Assembly (NCBI GenBank): GCA_020152595.1
Contig: JAIGNY010000170.1
Coordinates: 17,501-81,500, forward strand
Direction: 5' to 3'
Length of the DNA stretch: 64,000 nucleotides
From: Chiridota heheva
Taxonomy: Eukaryota; Echinodermata; Holothuroidea; Apodida; Chiridotidae
A model generated the notes under the pieces. That model was not told the DNA's origin. It made no database searches and worked only from the letters and a program-made list of their open reading frames with translations. Positions 5,930 through 54,997 of the stretch are shown piece after piece. Position numbers and translations under genes: made by a program. The first letter of the stretch is position 1. Each line of letters opens with the position of its first letter.

Positions 5930-8900
5930 TGTTGTTGTTGTTCAAACTTTATTTCAATCTTTTCGTAATATGTACAATAAATTCAATTAAATAGCACAGA
6001 TTGTCAGTTATGTTTAAAAGAAAAAGGAGAACCTTCAGAAAACTACTAAAAGTTTGTGATTAAAGGTTCCCCATGTATCACAAGGGACATTAACTTTGAA
6101 CATATATAATAGGATAAAATTTAAACAAAAGGAAAGAAAAAGAGAAAGTTACCTAACAAATACTGAAATACTAGTGACAATACCCGCCTTCAAAATACAC
6201 TTGGCTAACAATACAGATTATCAACAATATAGAAATAGTCTAAGTAGGATGATGGGAAGAATTCGAGATCGATCTAAGGAAATAGTTTTTAAGTTTGGAT
6301 TTGAAGCAAGTAATGCTGGGACAGCTTATAACAGACGTTGGTAGTGAATTCCAAATTTGTACGCTTGGTTTTTTTAAGTGGTTCTGACTTTTAGTGAAGC
6401 GTAACAATGGGGGGTTTAAGTTGGGTGGCATGTCTTGTATCATAGTTGTGAATTAAAGAGTTACTTATGAAAAAGTTAGCAAAAGTAGGCGGCAATAAGT
6501 TATTGTGAAACTGATACATGAAAACGGCATTTTGAAAATGAATAATGTCAAAGAAGGGAAAGAATGTTGCTATCTTTAGATAAGGGGCTGGTGTGAGCGT
6601 ACCTTGGAGAGTTTGTTAGAAACCTGATAATTCTTTTTTGTAAAAAACATAGTTTATGAAACTAAGTTTTATAATTATTACCCCATATTATACAGCAATA
6701 CATGAGATAAGGTATGATAAGCACATAATATAAGCTATATAGAATATGAACAGGTAAAATATCTTTTAATCTACTGATGATACCAACACTCTTTGCTACT
6801 TTATTAGTAATTAAATCAATATGAGAGTTCCAAGACAAGCATTCATCAATAGTTACACCAAGAAATGTTATATTGTTAGAAAAGGAGACTGGCATTCCAT
6901 TTATAGAAATGCGTAAGTTTGAGGTGTCTACTCGCCATTGTGTGGGTCTAAATAAAATAACAGTGGATTTTTTTGAATTCAGATGTAGCTTATTTGTTTT
7001 AAACCATTCTACAACTTTAGGCATTTCAGTATTACCAGTTTCAATTATATTTTTGACATTAGCATGGGTGCAAATAATGTTGGTATCATCTGCATACAAA
7101 GTAAAAACTAATTTAGAAGTACACCGAGATAAATCATTTACATAAATAGTAAAGGGCCAAGTATTGACCCTTGGGGAACCCCTGTACTTCTAGGAAGGAA
7201 ATTAGAGCATGCGCGTGGAATTGATACGCATTGTACACGGTTGGAAAGATAATCTACAAACCAATTTAAAGCAATACCTCGAACACCATATGTACTGAAT
7301 TTCTGTATGAGAATTGTATGATCTAGCGTGTCAAACGCTTTGGGTAAATCAAGGAATATTCCACATGCATATTCCCTATTTTCAAACGCATTTATAATCC
7401 GATCGGTGAAGCTTAAAAGAGCTTGAGATGTTGAGCGGCCGGGTAAGAAACTAAATTGATTTTGAGAAATAAGATTATATTTTTTAAAGAAAGCATACAG
7501 TCTGTTAAATACTAATTTTTCGAATATTTTGGAGAAACATGAAAGAACAGAAAAAAACATGAAAGAACAGAAATAGGTCTATACTTACTTTTGTTTTTTG
7601 AATCCCCAGCTTCAAAAACTGGTGTAACACGAGCTATTTTAAGCTCAAATGGCACTAATCACTCAACAAAAGAGCGATTGATAATATGAGACAGAGGTGA
7701 AAAAATAAATGGAGCTGCTGATTTAATAGCTTTTGAGTCAATTTCATCAATACCAGGACTGCATGACTTTAAATTCTTAATACAATTATACACTTTATGT
7801 GAATCGGTAGGTGATAGAAAAAAGTTATTCTTATTACCTGCTGGTAGATAATGAGAAAATGACAAATTACTAGTTGTGATGTCCTTTGCAAGTTTGGGCC
7901 CAATGTTAACAAATTAAGAATTAAACAAATTTGATACAAATTGTGGATCGTTACTTTAAAGTTATCGTGAGAAAGGATTATTTCACTTCTATTTGTGGAC
8001 TTTTTTTTGATAAGTGTATTAATTAATTTCCAGGTGTTTTTTAAATTACTAGTATGAAATTCACGGTTGTAAAAATTATACTTGGCAATGCGAATAACTT
8101 TCGTTAGTGTGTCTTAAAACGGACAGAGTTTGATTTATTTTCAATAGTTGGACTTTTTCTCAATTTCTTAAACAATTTATTTTTAGTTCGGCATGATTCC
8201 AAGATTCCAGGTGTACACCTTTTTTTTTTTTAGAGTTTTAGGAAAACATTCATTATAAGAAAAGGAAATGGTTTTGATGAACAAATTATAAGCATCTTGA
8301 CAGTTGGTCATATCATAGGTAAGTTTCCAATCAACTTGGGAGAAACAATGAGAGAATTTCTGAATATTTTCTGTAGTGATGGGATGAAACGTTTTATCAC
8401 TATAGTTTTTATTTTTATTTTTATTTCTACACTTATGGTTATGGTTATGGTAAGAAAACTTATATAGCGCACATTACTGCAAAACGATGCACTCAATGGC
8501 GCTTTACAAAAATAACTATAATATAAATAAACAACTTAAGTGCTACAAAGAATCATAAATAAACATAAAAAGATATGTGAACTACGAGTAAAAATATAAT
8601 TACGAAAAATACTGAGTAAATAAATGGGTTTTCAAAGCCTTCTTAAACATTGGGAGGGTGGCGGTATTTCTAACATTAATAGGGAGGCCATTCCAGAGTG
8701 TGGGTCCAGCAATACTAAACGAGCGGTCAGCAAACAATTTCTTTTGGGTAAAGGGAACATTAATAATGAGGGCGGCAGAAGACCTTATCAATACAATCAA
8801 CTTTTGGTATTACACAGAAAATAGGATAATGGTCAGAAATGTCAGTAACAATAATTTGTAAATATATTATCAATCAAGGATGAAGTAGTAGATGTTATTC

Positions 8901-10949: not shown

Positions 10950-13900
10950 AAATCCGGCGCAGACTCCGGCTCGAAATCCGGCGGAAGTCGGCGCGAACTC
11001 CGACGGACTCCGGCAAGGATTCTGGCGCAAACTCCGGCGCGGACTCCGGCACGGACTCTGCCGCGGACTCCGCTGGAATCCGCCACGGAATCCGCCGGAA
11101 TCCGCTGCAAACTTCGGCGGTCGCCACAGACTCCGGCGCAGACTCCGGCGGAATCCGACGCGGATTTCGGCGAACTCGGGCGGACTCCGGCGAGGATTCC
11201 GGCGCAAACTCCGACGCGGACTCCGGCGCAGACTCTGCCGCGGACTCCGCTGGAATCCGCCACGGAATCCGCCGCGGAATCCGCCGCGGACTCCGGCGGA
11301 ATCCATCTCGGACTCCGCTGGAATCCGTTGCGGAATCCGCCGGAATCCGCCGCGGACTCCGGCGGTTGCCGCGAACTCCGGCGGAATCTGGAGTGGACTT
11401 TGGCGGACTCTGGTGGAATCTGGCGCGGACTCTGGCTGTATCCAACGCGAACTCCGGCGGAATCCGGAGCAGACTCCGGCTCGGAATCCAGCGGAAGTCA
11501 GCGCGGACTCCGGCCCAAACTCTGCCGCGGACTCCGCCAAGATCAGCCGCGGACTCCGCCAAGATCAGCCGCGGAATCCGCCGGAATCCGCCACGGACTT
11601 CGGTGGTCGCCGCGAGTTTCGCCACGAACTCTGACTCTGGCGGTCGCTGCGGACTCTGGCAGTCGGCACGGACTCCGGAGGTCGTCGCGGACTTCGGCAG
11701 AATCCGGTGCGGACTCCGGCGCGGATTCCGGCGCAAACTCTGGCGCGGACTCCGGGGCGGACTCCGGCGCGGAATTCAGCGGAATCTGGCGCAGACTTCG
11801 GCAGAATCTGGCTCGGACTCCAACGGAATCCGCCGCAGACTCCGACGAAATCCAGCGCGGACTCCGGCGGTCGCCGCGGACTCCGACCGTCGCCGCGAAC
11901 TCCGGCGGAATCCGGAGCGGACTTTGGCGGAATCCGGCCAGACTCCGGCGGAATCCGGCACGGACTTCGCCGTTCGCCGCGGACTCCGGCGGATTTCGGT
12001 GCGGACTTCGGCGGATTTCGGTGTGGACTCCGCTGAATTTCGGGGTGGACTTCGCCGGAAGTCTGCGCAGACTCCGGCGGAATCCAACGCGGATTCCGGC
12101 GCGGACTCCGGTGCGGATTTTGGCGCAAACTCTGGCTCGGACTCCAGGGCGGACTCCGGCGTGGAACCGGCGGAATCCGGCGCGGACTTCGGCGGAATCT
12201 GGCTCGGACTCCAACGGAATCGAGGGCGGATTCCGGCGCGGACTCTGGCGAAATCCGCCGCGATTTTGCCGCAGACTCCGCCGAAATCCGCCGCAGACTT
12301 CGGCGATCACCGCGAACTCCGGCAGAATCCGGCGCGGACTCTGGCGGGCGCTGCGGACTCTGGTGGAATCCGGCGCGGACTCCGGCTGTATCCAACGAGG
12401 ACTCCGGCGAAATCCGGCGCAGACTCCGACTCGAAAACCAGCGGAATCTGGCTCGGACTCCGGCGGACTCCGGCGCGGACTCTGGCGAAATCCGCCGCGA
12501 CTCTGCCGCGGACTCCGCCGAGGATTCCGGCGCAAACTCCGGCACGGACTCCGGCGGACGCCGCGGACTCTGGCGGAATCAGGCGCGGACTCCGAATGTA
12601 TCCAACGCGGACTCCAGTGGACTCCAGCGGAATCCGGCGCGGACTCCGGCTCGGAATCCGGCGGTCGGCGCAGACTCCGTCAGTCGCCGCGGACTCCGTC
12701 GGTCGCCGCGGACTCCGGCGGTCGCCGCGGACTCCGGCGGTCGCAGCGGACTCCGGCGGAATCCGGTGCGGACTCTGGTGCGGACTCCGGCACAGATTCC
12801 GGCGCAAACTCCGGCGCGGACTCTGTCTGGCGCGGAATCCGCCCAGACTCTGGCGGAATCTGCCGGAATCCGCCGCGGACTTCGGCGGTCGTCGCAGACT
12901 CCGGCGGAATCCGGCGCGGACTCTGGCGGTCGCCGCGGACTCCGGCGCGGACTCTGGCTGTATCCAACGCGGACTCCGGCAGAATCCGGAGCAGACTCCG
13001 GCTCCAAATCCAGCGGAAGTCAGCGCGGACTCCGGCCCAAACTCTGCCGCAGACTCCGCCAAGATCAGCCGCGGAATCCCCTGGAATCCGCCACGGACTT
13101 CGGTGGTCGCCGCGAACTCCACCGCGAACTCTGACTCTGGCGGTCGCCGCGGACTCTGGCGGTCGGCGCGGACTCCGTCAGTCGCAGCAGACTCCGGTGG
13201 TCGCCGCGGACTCCGTCGGTCGCCGCGGACTCCGGCGGTCGCCGCGGACTCCGGGGACCGGTGCGGACTCGGCGCGGACTCGGCGCGACTCGGCGCGACT
13301 CGCGCGCGACTCGGGGCGGAATCCGGCGGAATCTGGCGCAGATTTCTGCGGAATCTGGCTCGGACTCCAACGGAATCCGCCGCGGACTCCGACGAAATCC
13401 AGCGCGGACTCCGGCAGTCGCCGCGGACTCCGGCGGTTGCAGCAGACTCCGACGAAATCCAGCGCGGACTCCGGCAGTCGCCGCGGACTCCGGCGGTTGC
13501 AGCAGACTCCGGCAGAATCCGGCGCGGACTCTGGCGGGCGCTGCGGACTCTGGTGGAATCCGGCGCGGACTCCGGCTGTATCCAACGCGGACTCCGGCGA
13601 AATCCGGCGCAGACTCCGACTCGAAAACCAGCGGAATCTGGCTCGGACTCCGGCGGACTCCGGCGCGGACTCTGGCGAAATCCGCCGCGACTCTGCCGCG
13701 GACTCGCCGAGATTCCGGCGCAAACTCCGCACGGACTCCGGCGGACGCGCCGGACTCTAGCGGAATCAGCGCCGACTCGGAATCGTATCAACGCGACTCG
13801 GTGGACTCCAGCGAATCGGGCGCGACTCGGCTCCGAATCCGGCGATGGCGCGACTCCGTCGGGTCGCCGCGACTCGTCGGTCGCCGCGACTCCGGCGGTC

Positions 13901-16128
13901 GCCGCGACTCCGGCGGTCGCAGCGGACTCCGGCGGTCGCAGCGGACTCCGGCGGAATCCGGTGCGGACTCTGGTGCGGACTCCGGCACAGATTCCGGCGC
14001 AAACTCCGGCGCGGACTCTGTCTGGCGCGAAATCCGCCCAGACTCTGGCGGAATCTGCCGGAATCCGCCGCGGACTTCGGCGGTCGTCGCAGACTCCGGC
14101 GGAATCGGTGCGGACTCTGGCGTCGCAGCGACTCCAGCGCGACTCGGCTGTATCCAACGCGACTCTGGCGGAATCCGGAGCAGACCCCGCTCGGAATCCA
14201 GCGGAAGTCAGCGCGACTCGGCCCAAACTCTGCCGTGGACTCGCCAAGATCAGCCGCGAATCCGCCGGAATCCGCGACGTGGACCGGGCGGTCGCGCGAG
14301 ACTCCGCCGAATCCGGCGCGACTCTGGCGGTCGCAGCGGACTCGGCGCGGACTCCGGCTGTATCCAACGCGGACTCTGGCGGAATCCGGAGCAGACCCTG
14401 GCTCGGAATCCAGCGGAAGTCAGCGCGGACTCCGGCCCAAACTCTGCCGCGGACTCCGCCAAGATCAGCCGCGGAATCCGCCGGAATCCGCCACGGACTT
14501 CGGTGGTCACCGCGAACTCCGCCGCGAACTCTGACTCTGGCGGTCGCCGTGGACTCTGGCGGTCAACGCGGACTCCGTCGGTCGCCGCGGACTCTGGCGG
14601 TCGCCGCGGACTCCGGCGGAATTCGGTGCGGACTCCGGCGCGGACTCCGGCGCAAATTCGGCGCGACTCGCTGGGCGGAATCCGGGCGCGAATTGGCGGA
14701 ATCTGGCGCAGACTTTGGCGGAATCTGGCTCGGACTCCAACGGAATCCGCCGCGGACTCCGACAAAATCCAGCACAAACTCCGGCGGTCGCCGCGGACTC
14801 TGGCGGTCGCCGCGAACTCCGGCGGAATCTGAAGCGGACTCCGGGCGGACTCTGTCTGGCGTGGAATCCGCCCAGACTCTGGCGGAATCTGCCGGAATCC
14901 AGCGCGGACTCTGGCGGTCGCCGCGAACTCCGGCGGAATCTGAAGCGGACTTTATCAGAATCCGGCGCGGACTCTGGCGGAATCCAGCGTGGACTCCGGC
15001 GGTCGGAGCGGACTCCGGCGGAATCCGGTGTGGACTCTGGTGCAGACTCCGGCACAGATTCCAGCGCAAACTCCGGCGCGGACTCCGAGCGGACTCTGTC
15101 TGGCGCGGAATCCGCCGCGGACTTCGGCGGTCGTCGCAGACTCCGGCGGAATCCGGCGCGGACTCTGGCGGTCGCCGCGGACTCTGGCGGTCGCCGCGGA
15201 CTCTGGCGGTCGCCGCGGACTCTGGCGGAATCGGCGCGACTCTGGCTGTATCCAACGCGACTCGGCAGAACCGGAGCAGACTCGCTCAAAATCCAGCGAA
15301 GTCAGCGCGACTACGCCCAAACTCTGCCGGACTCCGCCAAGATCAGCCGCGAATCCCCTGGAATCCGCCACGGACTTCGGTGGTCGCCGCGAACTCCACC
15401 GCGAACTCTGACTCTGGCGGTCGCCGCGACTCTGGCGGTCGTGCGGACTCCGCCAGTCGCAGCAGACTCCGGTGGTCGCCGCGACTCGTCGGTCGCCGCG
15501 ACTCGGCAGGTCGCCGCGACTCGCGGAGTCGTGCGGACTCGGCGCGGACTCCGGCGCGCGACTCGGGCGAATCGGCGGAATCTGGCGCAGATTTCTGCGG
15601 AATCTGGCTCGGACTCCAACGGAATCCGCCGTGGACTCCGACGAAATCCAGCGCGGACTCCGGCAGTCGCCGCGGACTCCGGCGGTTGCAGCAGACTCCG
15701 GCGGAATCCGGTGCGGATTCCGGCGCGGACTCCGGCGCAGATTTCGGCGCAAACTCCGGCCTGACTCTGGCGCGGAATCCGGCGGAATCCAGCACGGACA
15801 TCGGCGGAATCTGGCTCGGACTCCGACGGAATCCGGCGCGGACTCCGGCGCTGACTTCAGCGGTCGGCGCGGACTCCGTCTGTCGGCGCGGAATCCGGCG
15901 GTCGGTGCGGACTCCGGCGGAATCCGGTGCGGACTCCGGCGCAAACTCCGGCGCGGAATTCGGCAGAATCTGGAGCGAACTTCGGCGGAATCTGGCTCGG
16001 ACTCCCGCTGAATCCGCCGCGGACTCCGACAAAATCCAGCACAGACTCCGGCGGTCGCCGCGGACTCTGGCGGTCGCCGCGAACTCCGGCGGAATCTGAA
16101 GCGGACTTTATCAGAATCCGGCGCGGAT
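10950..16128. repeat. GC/CpG-rich satellite, 12-15 bp subunits with higher-order repeats
   Basis: The block is built from variants of GCGGACTCCGGC and GGAATCCGGCG. Most steps are close to 12 or 15 bases, so a triplet rhythm gives long frames in several phases on both strands, including one of 1772 codons and one of 686 codons. These frames are rich in Arg, Ser, Ala, Gly, Asp and Pro; the longest starts inside LINE remnant DNA. I treat them as non-coding because the subunit simply lacks stops in most phases. Higher-order structure is visible: the phrase GCCACGGACTTCGGTGG recurs near 11590, 13090, 14490 and 15368. Base composition is far from the AT-rich surroundings. The left edge is an A run (about 10940-10952); the right edge is an I-clade LINE tail. 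Confidence 0.9.
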
Positions 16129-38145: not shown

Positions 38146-41005
38146 AAAAGGCATTGTCAAAAGTTGACCTGAGAGTGTCATTGAAAGGCCTAGTTATTCT
38201 AGCGTGTTGTCGAAATTCATCTACACTTCTATAAGCCAATGCAGCAGTTTCAACGTTACGAAGTATGTAGCGTTGTCTGACAGTATCCTTGTAGTGCCTA
38301 TAGCGTATACTACAGTCAGAATGTTATTTGACTAGCATTATATACGTTGGAATTGCAATGCTTAAACAGTGCAATCCAATTCCTGTGCTTTATACAGTAC
38401 ATGCCCGAAAAAACTCCCTTGAAATTTTCTCGACCGTGCGCTCTTTCTCTAAGTTATGTATACTAACGTAAGTATAACATGTGCTAAGCGTAGAAAATTC
38501 AGTCCTACACAGGAATTTCACTGTAAAGGACCACTGGAGCCAAAACCTCAAGAAAATGATGATTTTTTGTACATTTTTAACAATAAGTTTTACTCCGTGA
38601 TATCACCATTTGATTTGGGATCGTCAACTTAATTTGTAGGACCAAGTTTTCGTGTTTACAAGGTGTTAAATGGAATGAAGTCGGTAGCCATCGGAAGTAA
38701 AAGTTTGTTGCTTTGGTGATGTTGCGCAATATTCCACATCATTGTATTAACATGGTGGCTCACAAAGTCTTGACATTGACAGTTTAACTAGTGGTACAAG
38801 TGCAGAATGCAACGCAATTTTCCAAGTATCAGTAAGACTCCAAGCAATATCGACTCCAGACTGGGAAGAGAATATATAGGCCTGGGCCCGAGGGCCTACA
38901 ACAACATAATGTGTCATTCTTAAATTAAAGGCATAATGACTATGACTCTACACAGGCCAAAAAAAAAAGGAGTCAGTATGACTAATGTTAGGAGAATAAA
39001 ATATATAGGCCTAATTACCCAGACTGTAAAGTTTTTTTCTTGCGGGAATGCAAAACGATTGTTCAAAATGGTGCAGATTATCTAGGGGTACGCAAAGTTG
39101 AACAGTGAATAGACACGGAAATTTTCATGCTACGAAAAGATGTGTGCCAAAATTTTCAGAAGAATAACAATAAATTTACATAAATTTGACCTGTTAGGTT
39201 TCTGATGGTCGAACTAGACATCAAGCTTCATCATCCATCATGTTGTGACATCTGAATATGTTGTATTAAACGAATGAATGACACAGTTCCAGTAGAGATG
39301 GTGTTGTCCTTTGAAAACTTATACTTCTCCTTTAATTGCTGACCAGAATTGGTGAATGGTTGTTGGAAGACTGATAACTGAAGTTGTAACTGGATTGTTT
39401 GTAAATTTATAGAAGTTACGTATTACGTATGCTGCAGTGGCGTTACGTATACTGCAGTGCAGTGATGTGACGTACGTTACTGCAGTGCAGTCTGTATTCG
39501 AATCCAGTATCATAAGGAATTCTGAATACGGAATATATGGGTTGTGATTGATAAGCTTGTAATGTGAAGTGAAGTATAGCCAAGTAGACAAGGTTGTCTT
39601 GCAGATAAAGAGAGGTACTATTTTGCGTGGGGAATGTCATGTTAATGGCCAAATTTTATGTGCGGATTTGGAGACGACTAGGAAATTGTGCAGATGGAAA
39701 ATAACCCATTTTTTGGGGTACAGTCTGGCTAACTGCGATTAGGACTTCAACCAAGAAACTTAAAAAACAATGTGTCGTTCTTAAAAAATGCACAAACATT
39801 TGACTACTTCCATGTAAAAAAATCACGGCCTCTCCACTACGACTACAGAATATGAAAGAATTAAGAAGTATAGTTCCAAAATTACATTGGATTCTGCAAT
39901 TATTCCAGCCTAATACCTTCATCAGTTTCACTCCGCAAAGTTTGCTGAATTAGAAAATTGCTGGTTGAAAAATGAAAAGGTGTGCTGAAACAAAACTCAA
40001 TGGGATTTAATAAGTGATCTGGTTTTTTTTTTTCACTGTCAGTAACCTCAGTACAGTAGGCCTATCCTTCACAATAACTGATAGGCCCACTGAAATTTCA
40101 GTATCATACTAAGCACTAACATACATGAAAATGCAAACACTTTTACTTCAATATGTTTTCTACAATTTCCCGTCATTTTCGAAATATGATTTGCTTGAGA
40201 TCATGCCGAAAATTGGTAAAGAAAATAAAATTCCGACCCACTTTGTTTCTGCGTATTTTGAAAATGGTAACACGCAGTGCCACGCACAGAAATGCATCTT
40301 CACGAAATTGTGCTATTGTTTTGGTGACGCTCAGCCTCACTGTCCATTGGAAGTATTTGGAAGAAGAAAATAAGATTGAACTAAACTCTTGTGTTGAAGG
40401 CATTCGACTCAATCATACTGTATGTGTGAAAAAAATTAAATGTATAAAAATCTTACAGTTAAACAGTTTCTTTCTTTCACATTGACAGTAGAGACACTAT
40501 AATGACCCTTCCAGGTATGCTGTACTGTGTCCCTATCTATACGGTGTAACTAAGTTTTAAGAATGAGTGTGTACAGTACCTTTTCAATTTCTACTGTACA
40601 GTCTGTGGGCAATCTTGGGTTAATGTACCAGGAAGTGAATGGGCCACGTTCATAGTTATTGACTTTTCATATTTTTTAGAAATGAGTGAAACCCACAGGC
40701 ACAGCTGTGCATTTTTTTAGAAACTGAATGATGGGCCAATTTACTTATCATACTCAAAATTAATAGCTACATTATGGAAAACATGTTTGGGTATTTGGGG
40801 ATTATTGAAAAGAGGAAGTACATGTAATCTAATCTTCCTTCAATGAAATTCTTGATAAACAAAGCAGAAACAGCTGTAAAATAATCAGAATGTTTTCATG
40901 TGGGATGTTCAACATTTCCTTCCCCTTCTCTGCTGCTCCGTCTAAGGTCAAACTTAGATCTGCTGTATTTGCCATGAAGGGTTCTGAAATTAGTGAATAC
41001 ATGGA
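38146..41005. other. Intergenic DNA, no gene seen
   Basis: Open frames are short and unrecognised. A cluster of TTACGTATRCTGCAGTG-like units lies at 39418-39495 (three to four copies). Several AGGCCTA and TAGGCCT words are scattered around 38870-39015. Nothing else stands out. Confidence 0.6.
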
Positions 41006-41007
41006 GA

Positions 41008-41440
41008 TAGGTGCTTATTCAGTTGAGCGTACGACTGACTTGCAGGAGGTCCCAGGTTCCAGTCCAACAACAATTTAACCTGAGATATTTCCACAAATAT
41101 GCAGAACGATATGCTGACATCACAGTGCAGAGGTTGACTGCATCCCATATCCTCCCATACATCGAGCCTTTGAGAAAAAGTTGCTATTGGCAGGGTGACG
41201 TTCACCGTCCATCGGATGAGAACGTTAAATGGCGGTCCCGATGGTAGGGTTCCTCACCTGCTTACCGTAGGGCTCTTCACCCCCTACTGTAGGGTTCCTC
41301 ACCCCTACCGTAGGGTTCCTCACCCCCTACCTGGTTCTCTGATCACTTCTTGAATAGAGCAAGGTGAAAACCAAATGTTTAACCACTGGCATTGCCAGCT
41401 TGGCGTCATTGGCCTAATATGAGGTTGTTGCTGAGTTCCC
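41008..41440 (+). mobile_element. tRNA-derived SINE with internal 26-bp expansion
   Basis: A degenerate A-box region (TTCAGTTGAGCGTACGACTG) and a B box GGTTCCAGTCC (41055-41065) head the element. The body shares GATGAGAACGTTAAATGGCG and GGTTCTCTGATCAC with the SINE at 53975-54425 (GATGAGGACGTTAAATGGCA, GGTTCTCTGAACAC). Between these shared blocks, 41240-41335 holds about four copies of a 26-base TAGGGTTCCTCACCCCCTAC unit that the other copy has only once in diverged form. Confidence 0.78.
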
Positions 41441-51899: not shown

Positions 51900-52205
51900 T
51901 ACTGGCTAAGCATGTTCATTGTGTCTGACAGCCTAGGGGAGAAGATTGGAAAGAAAATGGTGTAAAAGAGCTCAAGAATCTTATTGAAATCTTGGTGGTG
52001 CAGTTTTGAAATTTTGTAAGGCAATATATTCTGCCGAGTGCCAAACATTGTGTATGATGTACTATAACTCTGGTTAGATGTATATTGTCAGTGGTTTAGG
52101 AAGATATTTCACATTGGGGGCCAGATTTGATTTTTGTCCCAACAAACCAATGAAAATGTATACCGGTCTTATATCCAAAAATTATTTGTAACAGGAAGTG
52201 GTGGG
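51900..52205 (+). repeat. Local direct repeat A, copy 2
   Basis: Counterpart of 49372-49680; it lies directly before the 34-bp satellite. Confidence 0.8.
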
Positions 52206-52346
52206 AAGAAATTGTTGTAAAATTATTTTTTTTACTGATATGCACTGAGCTGCGGCAAGCTATACTGAAAGAAAAGGATTTACAAAAATGTTAAAATACC
52301 GGTTGCCCTAGTGATTCATCACAAACAACAGAATCATCTAAATATA

Positions 52347-54003
52347 GAGGATAGGTAGCTCAGTTGGTAGAGCACACGATTGAGATGGGTAGCTCAGTTG
52401 GTAGAGCACACGACTGAGATGGGTAGCTCAGTTGGTAGAGCACACGACTGAGATGGGTAGCTCAGTTGGTAGATCACACCACTGAGATGGGTAGCTCAGT
52501 TGGTAGATCACACCACTGAGATGGGTAGCTCAGTTGGTAGAGCACACGACTGAGATGGGTAGCTCAGTTGGTAGAGCACACGACTGAGATGGGTAGCTCA
52601 GTTGGTAGAGCACACAACTGCGATGGGTAGCTCACTTGGTAGAGCACACGACTGAGATGGGTAGCTCAGTTGGTAGAGCACACGACTGAGATGGGTAGCT
52701 CAGTTGGTAGAGCACACGACTGAGATGGGTTGCTCAGTTGGTAGAGCACACAACTGAGATGGGTAGCTCAGTTGGTAGAGCACACGACTGAGATGGGTAG
52801 CTCAGTTGGTAGAGCACACGACTGAGATGGGTAGCTCAGTTGGTAGAGCACACAACTGAGATGAGTAGCTCAGTTGGTAGAGCACACGACTGAGATGGGT
52901 AGCTCAGTTGGTAGAGCACACGACTGAGATGGGTAGCTCAGTTGGTAGAGCACACGACAGATGGATAGCTTAGTTGGTAGAGCACACAACTGAGATGGGT
53001 AGCTCACTTGGTAGAGCACACGACTGAGATGGGTAGCTCAGTTGGTAGAGCACACGACTGAGATGGGTAGCTCAGTTGGTAGAGCACACGACTGAGATGG
53101 GTTGCTCAGTTGGTAGAGCACACAACTGAGATGGGTAGCTCAGTTGGTAGAGCACACGACTGAGATGGGTAGCTCAGTTGGTAGAGCACACGACTGAGAT
53201 GGGTAGCTCAGTTGGTAGAGCACACAACTGAGATGGGTAGCTCAGTTGGTAGAGCACACGACTGAGATGGGTAGCTCAGTTGGTAGAGCACACGACTGAG
53301 ATGGGTAGCTCAGTTGGTAGAGCACACGACTGAGATGGGTAGCTCAGTTGGTAGAGCACACGACAGAGATGGGTAGCTTAGTTGGTAGAGCACACAACTG
53401 AGATGGGTAGCTCAGTTGGTAGAGCACACGACTGAGATGGATAGCTCACTTGGTAGAGCACACAACTGAGATGGGTAGCTCAGTTGGTAGAGCACACGAC
53501 TGAGATGGGTAGCTCAGTTGGTAGAGCACAACTGAGATGGGTAGCTCAGTTGGTAGAGCACACAACTGAGATGGGTAGCTCAGTTGTAGAGCACACGACT
53601 GAGATGGGTAGCTTAGTTGGTAGATCACACCACTGAGATGGGTAGCTCAGTTGGTAGAGCACACCACTGAGATGGGTAGCTCAGTTGGTAGAGCACACGA
53701 CTGAGATGGGTAGCTCAGTTGGTAGAGCACACGACTGAGATGGGTAGCTCAGTTGGTAAAGCACACAACTGCGATGGGTAGCTCAGTTGGTAGAGCACAC
53801 GACTGAGATGGGTAGCTCAGTTGGTAGAGCACACAACTGAGATGGGTAGCTCAGTTGGTAGAGCACACGACTGAGATGGGTAGCTCAGTTGGTAGAGCAC
53901 ACGACAGATGGGTAGCTCAGTTGGTAGAGCACACAACAGATGGGTAGCTCAGTTGGTAGAGCACACGACTGAGATGGGTAGCTCAGTTGGTAGAGCACAC
54001 GAC
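52347..54003 (+). repeat. 34-bp satellite derived from the 5' end of a tRNA-like SINE (about 49 units)
   Basis: Each monomer carries TAGCTCAGTTGGTAGAGCA, the D-arm/A-box region of a tRNA, followed by CACGACTGAGATGGG. The A-box core TAGCTCAGTTGG fits the consensus TRGCNNAGYNGG in most units. Variants (CTCACTT, GGTTGCTCAG, CACAACTG, CACCACTG, and deletions giving CGACAGATGG) form higher-order patterns: marker variants at 52631 and 52726 recur 372-373 bases later (about 11 monomers). The last monomer runs straight into the rest of the SINE, so that element or a relative is the source. The minus-strand frame at 53446-53628 is an artefact. Confidence 0.93.
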
Positions 54004-54425
54004 TGAGATGCTTGAGGTTTCAGATTCGAGTATCACGAGATACAACTAGGAGAATTTTTCCACAGCTGTGCAGACAGATATGCCAAGCATCAAAGACAGC
54101 AGTATGTTGTCTGCGGCAGCTACCCCTCATCTGGCCATTGAAAGAAGTGGACCAATGGTTGGATGGCGCTTATCAGATGAGGACGTTAAATGGCAGTCCT
54201 GACGGCAGTAGAGTCACCCCTGCTTGGTTCTCTGAACACTATTTGAAAAGAGAAGTGTGAAAACGTAGTGTACATTTCACTTCCTGTCCTGTTCCAGTCA
54301 AGTTAAGGGCATTGATCTTGAGCTGCTGCCGAGAGGATTTGACAGGAGTACAACATGTACAGAGCTTCTGACATCTATGAAGTTAGTTAGAATTAGTGCC
54401 TTATAAATGTTAGGAACTATTATGC
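53975..54425 (+). mobile_element. tRNA-derived SINE (source element at the right end of the satellite)
   Basis: A final A-box monomer is followed by a B-box-like GATTCGAGTAT (54023-54033) at normal tRNA spacing. The head resembles tRNA-Lys-type sequences (tentative). The body holds GATGAGGACGTTAAATGGCA and GGTTCTCTGAACAC, shared with the SINE at 41008. The 3' region ends AGTGCCTTATAAATGTTAGG and an ATTAT-type tail, similar to L2-like LINE tails at 38095-38140, so it may borrow an L2-type machinery (inference). Confidence 0.82.
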
Positions 54426-54997
54426 GTATTGTTGCCTCAAAATCTGAAAAACTCAATTTTTTTAGAGTTTGATGAAATCATTTGCTACTTTAATGGTCTT
54501 TGGTAGATTTGAGCAATTTCCTAATATCATGGAGATATCCCGCCAATAGCATCTAACATGAGCTATTCCAGTAAGTTTCAAAAAACAGTAACAGTGCTTG
54601 AAATCATATGGAGCTCGCCATAGGGGCAATTAAGGGAGTGCATATTTGCTAATTAGTGTGGTTATTGTAATAAAGAATACAACCATACCAGAATTATGCG
54701 TGGATTTTTTGCCCTCCCCCAATCATGTTTTTCCTTTGCAATTAAAATTTTGTACAGCCGCCTATGCTTGAACTTGATTCTGTAAGTGTATACTGACAAC
54801 CAGTGAAGTTCAAAAAAACAAAATCTTCACAGAAGTGTCATATAGGAGATGATTTTTTTCCATAAGTCTAGCTGCATTGTTTAGAACTTTATGAAGACTT
54901 TGAATTAGAAAACATGATTTTTTTTGGAAGAAAAAGGCTAGATGAAATTACTTGATAATTGCTTGATGGAATTACTTGATAATTGCCACATTATTTC

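Follow-up and report, generated by a model that had tools for sequence, protein, structure and literature searches.

The tandem array of 34-bp units that we analysed is very probably a minisatellite that grew in place inside a single SINE copy, with the RNA polymerase III (pol III) A box carried along in the repeated stretch and not maintained by selection. The array lies in a 64,000-nucleotide stretch of Chiridota heheva DNA (contig JAIGNY010000170.1, positions 17,501 to 81,500), the whole of which is referred to here as the window. A preliminary description, made from the letters of the window, had recognised about 49 A boxes in tandem at 52347-54003, and Tandem Repeats Finder (TRF) agreed with it closely, reporting 49.1 copies of a period of 34 at 52350-54010 with 95% matches and a score of 3007. 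The array is bordered on its left by the 5' edge of the SINE and on its right by what remains of that SINE (Table 1), confirming the suggestion that the array was derived from a SINE whose remainder stands directly beyond the last monomer. The majority 34-bp unit is identical to the consensus of the SINE head at 34/34 bases. When the array was split at the A box, its 49 monomers fell into 20 kinds, the commonest of which was represented 23 times, and the leading monomer (monomer G) showed two differences from the majority unit. A block of seven monomers was seen again at a distance of 11 monomers, which points to block duplication inside the array.

In the history that we infer, a SINE of the older subfamily would have inserted at the locus, after which the 34-bp stretch running from the SINE 5' edge through the A box would have been duplicated, and more copies would have been added and partly homogenised as units slipped or were exchanged unequally. 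Against this history, a crude comparison of array edges as placed by TRF revealed no clear microhomology. The A box would have been repeated as a neutral passenger of the duplicated stretch, not through selection. The monomers diverge from their majority by 2.2%, whereas the SINE body diverges from its subfamily consensus by 10.6%, indicating that the units turned over after insertion; this gap fits later turnover rather than selection. A coding reading of the array was considered and rejected, since by inspection stop triplets recurring at the 34-bp period close every frame, and no frame of at least 110 codons was listed as spanning the array.

Table 1. Positions in the window of the tandem array, its host SINE and related features.
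Feature	Position	Strand	Evidence or remark
Tandem array, 34-bp unit, about 49 copies	52350..54010	+	TRF, box and T-run scan, monomer classes
Host SINE 5' edge (GAGGATAGGTAGCTC...) and leading monomer (52353-52386)	52347..52386	+	Similar edge in single-copy SINEs L030, L035 and L036
Remainder of host SINE	54011..54294	+	BLAST match 53971-54294
Degenerate B-box-like site (GATTCGAGTAT), 3 mismatches	54023..54033	+	In SINE sequence past the array
Run of five T	54055..54059	+	44 bases beyond the array, common to the SINE family; candidate pol III stop
Second SINE copy of the same family	41003..41372	+	TRF and BLAST

The same SINE occurs as single copies elsewhere in the genome. All 17 single-match loci fetched from the genome search contained the dispersed element, and since two of them (L044 and L045) have common 5' flanks, they represent about 16 separate sites. 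The SINE consensus starts near GGAGTTAGGTAGCTCAGTTGGTAGAGCACACGACTGAGATGCTGGAGG and has a B-box-like GGTTCAAGCC whose start lies 44 bp beyond that of the A box, followed by a run of five T; the body is some 250-350 bp long, with variation among the single copies, and in some of these (L030, L034) the B box is damaged. Two subfamilies could be distinguished, with bodies about 20% apart and heads nearly alike, a likeness of heads that is ascertained because the copies were picked by their heads. The body of the window's SINE was 89.4% identical over 218 sites to the consensus of three older-subfamily copies, which places the array, by this comparison, in a member of the older subfamily. A tRNA or other RNA family identity for the SINE heads was also tried: ARAGORN found no tRNA genes in the window or in six loci, and Infernal gave no Rfam match in the window at gathering scores. 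Rfam searches of L039, L044, L030 and L023 returned five weak matches to miRNA models, all at one inverted repeat of L039 outside the SINE. Since neither program called a tRNA in the heads tried, the tRNA origin of the SINE head is read solely from its box sequences. Measured from the start of the B box, the internal five-T run of the SINE consensus comes about 30 bases further on (54055-54059 in the window), and pol III would be expected to stop there ahead of the body, an odd arrangement where transcription of the full element is needed. In the second SINE copy of the window the body has itself undergone a small expansion, a 22-bp unit repeated four times at 41244-41331.

To place the array among others of its kind, the genome (1.1 Gb in 3744 contigs) was searched with the initial 254 bases of the array region as the query, giving at least 122 matches, with 40 of 631 candidates scored. 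Twenty array-like or partial-array places on other contigs were fetched and analysed with TRF at a score of at least 100. An array confined to this one locus, which the preliminary description would have counted against its reading, is not what the search showed: the window's array is not unique, since tandem arrays of head-like units were found in 18/20 of these loci (L025 with only 2 copies), but unit lengths and breakpoints differ among them. In the remaining two fetched loci, L024 and L027, TRF found no array of head-like units. After the array the remainder of the same SINE runs on in 17 of the 19 arrays (the window's and those of the 18 loci), the exceptions being L018 and L026; the match to the SINE tail is diverged in L013, and that in L019, a short one, was partly judged by eye. 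The periods in these 17 SINE-tailed arrays were 20, 22, 25, 29, 34, 36, 39, 43, 44, 46, 55, 57, 58 (three arrays) and 66 (two arrays) bp.

The breakpoints of the arrays differ among loci at both ends. The units of L009, L014, L019 and L020 take in bases upstream of the GGTAGCTC core, the 22-bp unit of L017 ends just past the A box, and the units of L021, L023 and L025 include the B-box region, while the 20-bp unit of L028 is without the A-box core (0 matches allowing up to one mismatch). The outer flanks, compared over up to 600 bases per side, matched in two pairs of loci only, and in neither pair on both sides; we therefore take the arrays at different loci to be probably separate events, as judged from these flanks. 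In one pair, L013 and L023, stretches of 99 and 74 bases of the 5' flanks matched at 83-86%. In the other, L015 and L018, 517 bases beyond the arrays were common at 87% on the 3' side only; this common flank is perhaps a dispersed repeat and is not explained by the minisatellite reading. Tandem arrays of another A-box unit (GGTTAGTTCAATTGGTAGAGCACC type), without the tail of this SINE, were located at L018:3114-4522 and L026:2618-2877, and these units may perhaps come from another tRNA-like element. At L021:2780-4822, two separate arrays of the same 58-bp head unit flank a SINE body.

We consider it highly improbable that the array is a functional device in which the A boxes compete for the start of pol III transcription with one downstream B box, or which acts as a TFIIIC boundary. 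Such a reading draws on the 43 exact matches to TRGYNNARNNGG, which we took to be the A-box consensus, all in one orientation within the array (49 matches when up to one mismatch was allowed), compared to 3 exact matches elsewhere on the + strand of the window. The array also has no run of four T, and the five-T run follows 44 bases beyond it; with this single orientation, lack of T runs and T run beyond, a transcript from the array would be conceivable. However, the single B box that the preliminary description had placed just past the array proved degenerate. When scored against GGTTCRANNCC, the assumed B-box consensus, the best form after the array, GATTCGAGTAT, had 3 mismatches, on par with nearby chance sites, as a scan of 132 bases spanning the array's 3' end gave three places with at most 3 mismatches. 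Among the features of a type 2 pol III promoter, the A box is thus present in the window's array and a B box at usable distance is absent, and there was no match at the array to what is presumably the usual B-box signature of a TFIIIC-only (ETC-like) boundary. At other loci the picture is more favourable to function, since B-box matches with at most 2 mismatches were found in the 132 bases that span the array's 3' end in 7/19 loci, the window not included, and that of L017 was within 1 mismatch. Inside the arrays, matches with at most 2 mismatches occurred in 5/19 (in L021 and L025 within 1 mismatch) and exact matches in none, leaving 14/19 arrays without an internal B-box match at this threshold. 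In addition, the region 52200-54500 gave no Rfam match at E values up to 1, and the length of the unit changes from locus to locus. The differing unit lengths and breakpoints argue for repeated local expansion rather than one functional device.

A functional array would also be favoured by constraint on the A box, and the preliminary description had held the A-box core to be conserved above the expectation for a drifting repeat. Equal per-position rates in the A box and in the rest of the unit had been set in advance as an outcome that would speak against this, and in the window's array the rates were indeed equal, with a mean variant frequency per site of 0.0136 in the A box vs 0.0123 elsewhere (CpG sites excluded). 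Fifteen of the 19 arrays were treated in the same manner, omitting L018 and L026 (other unit type), L025 (two copies) and L028 (no A box), and variation in the A box was lower than in the rest of the unit in 11 of them and higher in 4. The mean rank of the A box among all cyclic 12-base windows was 0.42 over 14 arrays (Wilcoxon p = 0.30); L021, in which raw variation was 0.0751 in the A box and 0.0981 in the rest, was left out of the rank test because a SINE body lies between its two array parts. When variant types were pooled, the A box had 49 over 168 sites and the rest of the units 133 over 410 (p = 0.52). There is thus a slight lean towards A-box constraint across arrays, short of significance, and the claim of conservation above expectation was not upheld. 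The alternative that had been offered alongside it, that the array is simply a satellite, fits the in-place expansion of a SINE and the lack of significant A-box constraint. Overall, the array looks like an ordinary minisatellite in which the promoter motif is present by descent, and not like a conserved regulatory array.

A different question is whether the head of this SINE is prone to such expansion. The head might be a hotspot of tandem growth, at which pol III/TFIIIC bound to the A box would stall replication or leave nicks, with the opening 60 bp of the SINE expanding independently in many copies; we regard this as unlikely, and we assign a similarly low probability to the proposal that minisatellites nucleate recurrently at the pol III promoter region of the SINE, where the binding of A-box factors or transcription would provoke duplication. 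Consistent with a hotspot, 17/19 arrays lie in the heads of SINE copies with differing breakpoints, and they comprise 10 to 66 units in 16/17 cases (L025 has 2), whereas the unsought expansions of the body, seen in 3/40 SINE body stretches (window 41244-41331, L016 and L020), have 2 to 4 units each. However, the head arrays, the window's own aside, were fetched with a head query, and every large SINE-internal array was either such a find or the one given at the outset, so that the excess in the head is ascertained. Among the 100 tandem arrays with a TRF score of at least 100 in all sequence examined, 25 matched the SINE, 23 of them in the head (the window's array or head-query loci) and 2, unsought, in the body. 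The expanded unit of L028, moreover, excludes the A box. The SINE head as a strong hairpin was rejected, since the head was no outlier in predicted DNA folding and, in windows of 40 and 60 bases, other parts of the SINE folded equally well or better.

The number of head arrays was also set against the background of tandem repeats. Arbitrarily placed sequence, 40 kb in all and free of copies of this SINE, contained 11 arrays with a TRF score of at least 200 and 4 with a score of at least 800 (at least 5 copies, periods 10-120). The corresponding numbers for the flanks, 117.6 kb in total, were 25 and 11, i.e., one large array per 10.7 kb. This genome is rich in minisatellites. The density of the SINE is about one per 45 kb, as estimated from the few unsought copies (window 41003, L013, L023 and L028, with partial copies in L036 and L043). 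On a rough estimate, some 25,000 SINE copies and one large array per 10 kb would give about 150 chance arrays in 60-bp heads, an order-of-magnitude figure from few copies, to be set against the 17 found, which are a lower bound. Since minisatellite density and SINE copy number together predict more head arrays than were found, no special cause is needed for their number.

The best reading of the array, in-place expansion of a SINE head, makes it another case of the known SINE-derived satellites. In squamate reptiles, SINE-derived satellites (sSats) have units that are parts of tRNA-type SINEs and shorter than the SINE, and they resemble the present arrays in that the terminal sequence runs into the rest of the SINE, the origins are independent, and the loci are long with fairly uniform units (PMC10702118). 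By the criteria given for sSats, the window's array has a partial-SINE unit, a terminal unit continuing into the SINE and at least four middle monomers (49). In contrast, squamate units are about 70-290 nt in size vs 20-66 bp here, and the major squamate variants recur over many loci per taxon, except in python with its few, variable loci, whereas here almost every locus examined has a unit of its own, in head arrays that a head query had retrieved (PMC10702118). Short units, and a change of unit at nearly all loci examined, set the present arrays apart. Tandem repeats derived from human transposable elements (TEs) likewise grew within single TE copies, and some TE regions, including two regions of AluS, were hotspots; that case differs in that the element is Alu and in that most of the repeats without an accepted mechanism have just two units (PMC3389668). 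A SINE sequence has also been made into a tandem repeat in the limpet, where PcH-sat comes from Nin-SINE, but its unit is 179 bp, and it is pericentromeric and forms about 10% of one species' genome (PMC11121367). Amphibian satellites with pol III promoters, namely Xenopus OAX/satellite 1, newt PolIII/TAN, Rana/polIII and Hydromantes Hy/polIII, are similarly tandem repeats with a tRNA-like promoter, and Hy/polIII is said to be without box B; these differ in that their units measure from about 200 bp upwards, and PolIII/TAN is transcribed in vitro (PMC10702118, PMC9659126). A search of open papers for several A boxes in tandem gave unrelated papers only. By itself the window's array is ordinary. 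The conversion of SINEs to minisatellites at many separate loci of one genome offers a useful set on the birth of tandem arrays, and if the head is indeed more given to expansion than the body, pol III factors would be linked to minisatellite birth.

Elsewhere in the window, minus-strand frames at 1758-2548 and 7138-7560 look like what we take to be LINE reverse transcriptase, and the minus-strand frames 1758-2180 and 7138-7560 are nearly identical. Positions 10953-16127 hold more than 5 kb of GC-rich degenerate repeats with CGGACTCCGG-type units of 12, 19, 22 and 44 bp, and on each strand several frames through these repeats stay open, for up to 1772 codons, which is probably a mere effect of composition.
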